In this document: in pieces, positions 4,315-6,056 of the stretch
Position numbering within the stretch: the stretch's first letter is position 1
How the letters are laid out: every line of letters begins with the position of its first letter
NCBI RefSeq assembly: GCF_002214385.1
Contig: NZ_CP014855.1
Location: 1-64,000 of the forward strand
Source: Thermococcus gorgonarius
GTDB taxonomy: Archaea; Methanobacteriota_B; Thermococci; Thermococcales; Thermococcaceae
Direction of reading: 5' to 3'
DNA length: 64,000 bases
The notes under the pieces: generated by a model
Told to the model about the DNA's origin: nothing
Databases searched by the model: none
Seen by the model: the letters and a program-made list of their open reading frames with translations, nothing else
Made by a program: the position numbers and the translations under genes

Positions 4315-4357
4315 TTCAGTCGCGGATTTTCATTGACGACTATTTGGGGTGGTCAAA

Positions 4358-4954
4358 ATGAAACGGGTTATAGTTGTTGGAGTGCTCGGTATCCTGGTGT
4401 TTCTGGCCGGCGTCAAGTTCGGAGTTTCGTACTTCAGCGACGTGGCCAAGTCCGAGGGAAACCAGATCTCCACCGGGGACTTTGACATCGGCATAAGCAG
4501 AGACGGGGAAAGGTTCTACGATGACTACAAGCTCTTCTCTTTCGACGATCTTCAGCCTGGAGAGGAGAGGACTGTTGATTTCTACATCAAAAACCGCGGA
4601 GACTACCCGGTCTCCTCTGTGGGCATGGTCTTCAACGTCACCGACCTTGAGGACGGCAGTCTAAGCAAAGCAGAGGCCCTGGTTGATAAAACCCTCGATG
4701 CTGGCGAGCTCAGTAAATACCTGATAATCAAGGACTTCCGCGTCTCTCAGGATGGCTATGAGGAAGTCCTCAGCGACTACATTGGGAAGAGCCTGAAGGA
4801 GCTCAATATGAGCGAACTCCAGATCTTCTCGGGCTCACTTCCGGAAAATGGAATTCTAAAGGTAACTCTAACTGTTCAACTTTCCCCCTCAGCTGGCAAC
4901 GACTGTCTCACCGACACTTCAAAGATCGGCATTCTGATCACCGCGGAGCAGTAA
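4358..4954 (+). CDS. Exported TasA/camelysin-like protein
   Basis: The protein of 198 residues starts with a basic N-terminus and one hydrophobic helix (VIVVGVLGILVFLAGVKFG), then SYFSDVAKSEGNQISTGDFD. This resembles the SipW-dependent signal region and first strand of the TasA/CalY (camelysin, M73-like) family. The remainder is predicted beta-rich, with DLQPGEERTVDFYIKNRGDYP typical of the family's Ig-like sandwich. In bacteria TasA forms biofilm fibres, and archaeal relatives form bundling pili (AbpA of Pyrobaculum), so a surface fibre role is plausible but inferred. I chose ATG 4358 over GTG 4349 because GGGGTGG ends six bases before it. No dedicated signal peptidase gene is adjacent. Two cysteines are present in total at most, so disulfides are unlikely to dominate. 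Confidence 0.65.
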   Translation: MKRVIVVGVLGILVFLAGVKFGVSYFSDVAKSEGNQISTGDFDIGISRDGERFYDDYKLFSFDDLQPGEERTVDFYIKNRGDYPVSSVGMVFNVTDLEDGSLSKAEALVDKTLDAGELSKYLIIKDFRVSQDGYEEVLSDYIGKSLKELNMSELQIFSGSLPENGILKVTLTVQLSPSAGNDCLTDTSKIGILITAEQ

Positions 4955-4970: not shown

Positions 4971-4991
4971 CTCCCACGGGAAGCAATTAAC

Positions 4992-5047
4992 GCGATGATG
5001 AGTGATGGGCGAACCGACTGGTGAGGAAGGAAAGGTGATCGCTGAGC
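4992..5047 (+). ncRNA. C/D box guide sRNA (first of tandem pair)
   Basis: Box C is ATGATGA at 4995-5001 and box D is CTGA at 5042-5045, exactly 40 bases apart, the same spacing as in the second RNA 90 bases downstream. A degenerate D' (CCGA, 5014-5017) follows a 12-base guide at 5002-5013, and GTGAGGA at 5021-5027 can serve as C'. The 12-base guide pairs, with one G-U and one end mismatch, to UUCGCCCAUUAA, which I recall as the archaeal 23S A-loop; the fifth-base rule would place 2'-O-methylation at the C equivalent to E. coli C2558. The D-box guide is unassigned. The terminal stem is weak and the internal boxes imperfect, hence only moderate confidence. Confidence 0.6.
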
Positions 5048-5050
5048 ATA

Positions 5051-5060
5051 CCTTTTTAAC
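5051..5060 (+). promoter_or_regulatory. TATA box of second C/D box sRNA
   Basis: CCTTTTTAAC is a good archaeal TATA element. Its centre is about 27 bases before 5082, where the terminal stem of the second guide RNA begins, so this RNA appears to have its own promoter rather than being processed from the upstream mRNA. Confidence 0.6.
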
Positions 5061-5081
5061 CCTCTCTTTTTGAATCCTCTT

Positions 5082-5139
5082 GGGATGATGACTTCAGCCT
5101 TGCCTGAGGCTCGTGATGATGGAGTGACGGACTGACCCC
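5082..5139 (+). ncRNA. C/D box guide sRNA (second of tandem pair)
   Basis: All four boxes are canonical: C ATGATGA 5085-5091, D' CTGA 5104-5107, C' GTGATGA 5113-5119, D CTGA 5132-5135. Both guides are exactly 12 bases, the archaeal optimum, and a GGG/CCC terminal stem closes the RNA at 5082-5084 and 5136-5138. The D' guide (5092-5103) is complementary over 11 bases to the 16S segment GCAAGGCUGAA, and the D guide (5120-5131) to CCGUCACUCCA, both recalled from archaeal 16S. Counting five bases from the boxes predicts methylation at the equivalents of E. coli G902 (helix 27) and U1406 (helix 44, decoding site). The RNA would work with L7Ae, Nop5 and fibrillarin, none of which is encoded in this window. 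Confidence 0.9.
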
Positions 5140-5195: not shown

Positions 5196-6056
5196 TTGGA
5201 AGCGGTTTACAAGCCTATCTGGCTTTCTATAGTCGGAAACGTTCTGCTCGCCCTGCTCAAGCTAGTCATCGGGTTCCTCTACTCAAGCATAGCCCTCATA
5301 TCGGACGGCGTCCACTCACTGAGCGACGTGATAACGAGCGTCATCGGCTATGTTGGGATAAGGATATCCTCCAAACCCCCTGATCAGAGTCACCCTTTTG
5401 GCCATTCGCGCTTTGAGCCGCTGGTTGCTTTTCTCATCGGGGAAGCGCTCCTCATAGTCGCATACGAGATAGGGCGCGATTCCATCTACAGGCTCATGAG
5501 GGGAGAGGTGGTAGACGTCAACTCTATCATGCTTGGAGTTACCATTCTCTCGATCCTTGCCAAGGAAGCCATGTTCCGCTATTCTCTCCACGTTGGCAGA
5601 AAACTTAACAGCCAGATTTTAATAGCGGATGCCTACCACCACAGGAGCGATTCACTGAGCAGTCTGGCGGTTCTGGTCGGGTTGGGAGCACAGAGGCTTG
5701 GATTCAGATACGGTGACGCTCTAGCCGGCCTCGTGGTGGCGGTCTTCCTCCTGAAGGTCTCCTTTGATATAATCCTCCAGAACATTGGCTACCTGACCGG
5801 CCAGGCTCCATCCTTCGAGGTCTGCGAGGAGATAAAGAAGCGTGCTCTCAGCGTCCCAAACGTCCTTGGCGTTCACGACCTGCGGGCGCACTACGTCGGA
5901 AACAAGCTCCACGTGGAGCTACACATCGAAGTGCCGCCGGAGCTGACTCTGAAAGAGGCCCACGATATCAGCGAGGAGGTGAAGAAACGCGTGGAGGAGA
6001 TTCCAGAGGTGGACAGGGTCTTTGTCCACGTGGACATAAAAGGGGTTACGGAGTGA
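5196..6056 (+). CDS. Cation diffusion facilitator (divalent metal efflux)
   Basis: The 286-residue protein has six predicted membrane helices in the first 200 residues and a soluble C-terminal domain of about 85 residues, the standard CDF plan. Metal-site signatures are visible: ISDGVHSLSDVITS in helix two and ADAYHHRSDSLSS (HxxxD) in helix five. CDF proteins export Zn, Mn, Fe, Co or Cd in exchange for protons; the metal cannot be fixed from these motifs. The C-terminal domain has the ferredoxin-like dimerisation fold (HVELHIEVPPELTLKEAHDI). TTG 5196 follows GGAGGTGG by four bases and is the best start. Its 3' end overlaps the convergent decarboxylase gene by 11 bases. Confidence 0.93.
   Translation: MEAVYKPIWLSIVGNVLLALLKLVIGFLYSSIALISDGVHSLSDVITSVIGYVGIRISSKPPDQSHPFGHSRFEPLVAFLIGEALLIVAYEIGRDSIYRLMRGEVVDVNSIMLGVTILSILAKEAMFRYSLHVGRKLNSQILIADAYHHRSDSLSSLAVLVGLGAQRLGFRYGDALAGLVVAVFLLKVSFDIILQNIGYLTGQAPSFEVCEEIKKRALSVPNVLGVHDLRAHYVGNKLHVELHIEVPPELTLKEAHDISEEVKKRVEEIPEVDRVFVHVDIKGVTE

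Follow-up and report, generated by a model that had tools for sequence, protein, structure and literature searches.

Genetic organization of the sR60 locus

The window analyzed, i.e. the whole stretch of 64,000 nt from Thermococcus gorgonarius (positions 1-64,000 of the forward strand of NZ_CP014855.1; assembly GCF_002214385.1), carries a C/D box sRNA gene identified by cmscan against Rfam as sR60 (RF01309). The match spans the entire model (positions 1-55/55) with a score of 64.8 bits (E 1.3e-13), i.e. above the gathering score of 50, and the scan recommended in the initial annotation, which had described a C/D box sRNA with four canonical boxes at 5082-5139, thus bore out that assignment. 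All four boxes (C, D', C' and D) were read directly in the sequence. When both strands were scanned with a strict box pattern, two C/D box sRNAs were found in the window, sR60 and sR1, and no third. The sR60 locus comprises the following features:

5053-5059, + strand: TATA-like TTTTTAA, candidate sR60 promoter (from its motif)
5081-5137, + strand: C/D box sRNA sR60 (Rfam RF01309), whole RNA (cmscan against Rfam)
5082-5084, + strand: closing stem, 5' side (GG of GGG; compensatory changes across genera)
5085-5091, + strand: C box AUGAUGA (direct reading)
5092-5103, + strand: D' guide CUUCAGCCUUGC, 12 nt (direct reading)
5104-5107, + strand: D' box CUGA (direct reading)
5108-5112, + strand: D'-C' spacer GGCUC, 5 nt (direct reading)
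5113-5119, + strand: C' box GUGAUGA (direct reading)
5120-5131, + strand: D guide UGGAGUGACGGA, 12 nt (direct reading)
5132-5135, + strand: D box CUGA (direct reading)
5136-5138, + strand: closing stem, 3' side (CCC; compensatory changes across genera)
5196-6056, + strand: gene of a CDF-family cation efflux (zinc) transporter, TTG start (PF01545, E 1.7e-48; PF16916, E 2.9e-22)

RNAs of the C/D box class are recognized by (i) boxes C, D', C' and D in this order, (ii) guides of approximately 12 nt, (iii) a covarying terminal kink-turn stem and (iv) rRNA complementarity of at least about 9 bp across the N+5 position; all these features were found in sR60, whose guides show complementarity of 11 bp each. 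The closing stem displays full compensatory changes across genera (GG/CC, CC/GG and AA/UU). In the register -2/+1, 97% of the pairs are standard, compared with 69% (-1/+1) and 63% in the adjacent registers, and both inner pairs are G-C in 70, C-G in 15 and A-U in 4 of the copies compared. Following this register, the stem of the T. gorgonarius RNA would consist of GG/CC (two pairs) and a U.C mismatch, and not of three GGG/CCC pairs. The GGG and CCC triplets previously described as the closing stem do flank the RNA, but the conserved register retains only two of the three pairs.

In the host genus, 58/59 copies carry a TATA-like motif at a distance of 24-40 nt 5' of the C box, compared with approximately 0.012 expected per 17-nt span, and separate promoters are therefore likely in this genus; in T. 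gorgonarius, the motif at 5053-5059 may serve as the sR60 promoter. The CDF gene is found downstream of sR60 in 58/89 copies, at a distance of 9-22 nt in the genera g2 and g4, and leader k-turns have been considered as cis elements in Thermococcus kodakarensis (PMC4247193). These observations would be compatible with an L7Ae-binding kink-turn that is placed in the 5' leader of the transporter gene, regulates this gene and does not serve as a guide. However, the linkage expected to be constant for such an element was not found in 31/89 copies, in which the RNA was nevertheless retained, and the guide cores are invariant, although a cis-acting k-turn would not need them. We consider this explanation highly improbable.

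Guide sequences and their 16S rRNA targets

The 16S (G000:C1:78831-80319) and 23S rRNA genes, each the sole copy in the genome, were used as pairing targets. E. coli numbering was set by two conserved strings, ACACCGCCCGU and AAACUUAAAGG, which we take to end at position 1406 and to start at position 907, respectively. The D guide forms 11 uninterrupted Watson-Crick pairs with positions 1355-1365 of the 16S rRNA (helix 44; -21.9 kcal/mol), and its N+5 position falls on U1358, corresponding to E. coli U1406. The D' guide forms 11 uninterrupted Watson-Crick pairs with positions 848-858 (helix 27; -19.4 kcal/mol), with N+5 at G852, corresponding to E. coli G902. In 300 dinucleotide-preserving shuffled 16S+23S sets, the D' score was reached once (1/300), as was the D score (1/300), and both together were never reached (0/300).

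The target strings in helix 44 and helix 27 that the initial annotation had given are identical to those of the organism's own 16S rRNA, and its U1406 and G902 equivalents, considered as site positions, were confirmed on this gene. The pairing of 11 bp at each site also exceeds the limit of about 9 bases that it had set for abandoning the proposal. Its claim of two exact 12-base guides was right as to length (12 nt), but exact complementarity extends over only 11 bases of each guide.

Conservation of sR60 and the alternative target of the D' guide

sR60 was identified in 91/94 genomes of the host family, representing 6/6 genera. Conservation was assessed in 89 parsed copies, in which the D guide is invariant from N+2 to N+11 and the D' guide from N+4 to N+11, a count that is conditional, since guide-core patterns served to select the copies. 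In two further copies a single base deviates, in the D guide of one (G091) and in the D box of the other (G074). Free variation is seen at N+12 of either guide and in the D'-C' spacer, with 25 genus-spacer combinations among the 89 copies. The target sites are identical in 50/51 16S sequences; the odd sequence (G003, contig C132, L172) is bacterial-like, which points to contamination of that family assembly.

Pairing of the D' guide with helix 27 is contiguous over 11-12 positions in 61/89 copies, and the match comprises 8-9 bp in nearly all copies of Pyrococcus, g2 and g4. A second candidate target of this guide was found at positions 961-969 of the 16S rRNA (helix 33; N+5 at G962), where the core of the helix 27 site, AGGCUGAA, recurs and 9+2 pairs may form with an energy of -17.8 kcal/mol in T. 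gorgonarius. In Pyrococcus the two sites are about equal, and in seven copies helix 33 is slightly better (-14.3 to -14.9 vs. -13.0 to -13.6 kcal/mol for helix 27), as would be expected if helix 33 were the real target, at least in this genus. On the other hand, N+3 of the D' guide is U in 81/89 copies, a base that pairs in helix 27 (A850) but not in helix 33 (C960), and this, together with the 11-12 contiguous pairs in most copies, makes us regard helix 33 as quite an unlikely target and retain helix 27.

Outside the host family, searches for sR60 returned only weak matches (25-29 bits) in the deeper Thermococci, and these were rejected as representing a different sRNA, whose D guide is likewise directed to C1402. 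This distinct C/D box sRNA (L184-L191, at approximately 1500-1560) has the D guide GAGAUGGGCGGU, with N+5 at the C1402 equivalent; its D' guide had no match in the rRNAs of T. gorgonarius.

The tandem neighbour sR1

The second C/D box sRNA of the window, sR1, is located 33 nt upstream of sR60 on the same strand:

4991-5047, + strand: C/D box sRNA sR1 (Rfam RF01152; cmscan 56 bits, gathering score 45)
5002-5013, + strand: sR1 D' guide GUGAUGGGCGAA (pairing with own 16S)
5028-5041, + strand: sR1 D guide AGGAAAGGUGAUCG (pairing with own 16S)

The tandem arrangement, with 11-43 nt between the boxes, was observed in 66/89 copies: 51/59 in the host genus, 9/9 in the Pyrococcus-like g3, 5/5 in g5 and 1/1 in g6; none was found among the g2 and g4 copies. 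In L014 and L020 (G021 and G032, respectively), sR1 is separated from sR60 by an insert of approximately 745 bp, whose longest frame, on the opposite strand, appeared PIN-domain-like (VapC-type) when inspected by eye. Upstream of sR1 in the window, the ORF at 4349-4954 gave a weak match to Peptidase_M73/camelysin (E 9.5e-6).

The sR1 targets were taken from the genomic orthologues and not from the Rfam consensus, whose guides match neither of the orthologues' 16S sites (the C1402 and C1533 equivalents). As the consensus guides of RF01152 thus miss the sites targeted by the Thermococcales members of this family, the model may mix paralogues. The D' guide forms 10 bp (9 Watson-Crick and 1 GU) with positions 1352-1361 of the 16S rRNA, placing N+5 at C1354 (E. 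coli C1402), and the D guide forms 9 Watson-Crick bp with the 3' end of the molecule (1478-1486; anti-Shine-Dalgarno), placing N+5 at C1482 (E. coli C1533). With the D guide read as AGGA-AA-GGUGAUCG, an AA bulge would allow it to anneal to the entire 16S 3' end CGAUCACCUCCU, and it could mask the anti-Shine-Dalgarno sequence.

The target of the sR1 D' guide (1352-1361) shares seven 16S bases with that of the sR60 D guide (1355-1365). Judging from this overlap, the two RNAs would be unable to pair there simultaneously and would have to act on helix 44 in succession.

Methylation evidence and proposed function

The cryo-EM analysis of the Pyrococcus abyssi 30S subunit (3.2 Å) lists Cm1376, given there as the counterpart of C1402 in E. 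coli and of Cm1639 in yeast, and this is exactly the position that the N+5 rule predicts for the sR1 D' guide (PMC7005279). A review credits the Cm at the C1402 position in P. abyssi to Pyrococcus sRNA work (PMC11542601). The same list includes hm5C1378, but position 1380 (the U1406 equivalent) is absent from it, and helix 27 has no Gm entry (PMC7005279). Since the D guide of P. abyssi sR60 is the same as that of T. gorgonarius, the missing modification weighs against methylation of U1406 in P. abyssi. In a survey of seven other archaea, predictions were sparse in helix 44, and helix 27 was a hotspot (PMC4644070). The circRNA table of T. kodakarensis contains no circular reads for the sR60 locus (PMC9014305), and the article texts searched yielded nothing on sR60 or Um1406 in archaea.

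We propose that sR60 is a Thermococcus double-guide C/D box sRNA directing 2'-O-methylation at the equivalents of U1406 in helix 44 and G902 in helix 27 (probability approximately 0.85). The RNA would form a double-guide sRNP together with L7Ae, Nop5 and fibrillarin, the gene for the last of which is present in the genome (E 1.9e-101). In this complex the D guide would hold the 5' strand of helix 44 and direct methylation at the U1406 equivalent, and the D' guide would hold helix 27 and direct methylation at the G902 equivalent. One such sRNP could also bridge helix 27 and helix 44 during 30S assembly. The targets are 506 nt apart in the 16S sequence, which makes bridging by a single particle possible and gives some reason to consider a chaperone role.

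Such bridging might even be the main function of sR60, with methylation of U1406 absent or minor. U1380 is missing from the P. abyssi list although the nearby Cm1376 and hm5C1378 were modelled (PMC7005279), and long-range double-guide sRNAs, among which the spacing of the sR60 targets would place this RNA, have been described in a review as likely chaperones (PMC7994747). However, 2'-O-methyls can escape a 3.2 Å map, only three being listed in the whole P. abyssi 16S rRNA (PMC7005279), and sR60 retains an intact C' box, D box and N+5 position, all of which are required for catalysis. We therefore hold a predominant chaperone function to be possible but rather doubtful, and favour methylation guidance.

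A broader proposal includes both neighbours as a conserved gene pair, whose guides would rival each other for binding to the decoding strand in helix 44: sR1 would join C1402 to the anti-Shine-Dalgarno 3' end, sR60 would join U1406 to helix 27, and their ordered exchange might constitute an RNA-guided checkpoint of late 30S assembly, in which the U1406 contact serves as a chaperone rather than for methylation. We put this forward as a speculative and unlikely model.

Comparison with known systems

sR60 of T. gorgonarius is an already known RNA, the Thermococcus orthologue of a curated Rfam family, with the predicted targets following from its sequence. It shares with RF01309 a full-length match (1-55/55), identical boxes, the D guide GGAGUGACGGA and the D' core UUCAGCCU, and differs in having two extra spacer bases. 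The 2-3 bases closest to the D' box also differ from the family, being UGC in T. gorgonarius and AAG or AGG in Pyrococcus, with the result that 11 bp instead of 8 are matched in helix 27. The yeast Gm1126 (snR41) is perhaps the counterpart of the G902 equivalent, as counting from position 1191 would suggest.

The neighbouring sR1 (RF01152) belongs to the same RNA class and has one target in the same strand of helix 44, but it would guide the C1402 and C1533 equivalents, whereas sR60 would guide those of U1406 and G902. Yeast snR70 (18S Cm1639) and plant AtU43 are likewise 2'-O-methylation guides acting on the same decoding strand, at the C1402-equivalent position (PMC7005279, PMC8307265, PMC11542601), and hence are counterparts of sR1 rather than of sR60. 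The literature compared revealed no eukaryotic guide directed to the U1406 equivalent.

Taken alone, sR60 is a catalogued housekeeping guide RNA. The less expected part of the locus is the neighbouring sR1, with a guide overlapping the same 16S target, and the importance of the finding is modest: the adjacent sR1 and sR60 genes encode guides whose targets overlap on the decoding strand of helix 44. The pair allows a direct test of whether archaeal sRNPs occupy a single rRNA site in succession, and sR60, with an intact guide and a modification missing from the list, allows one of whether every intact guide yields methylation.
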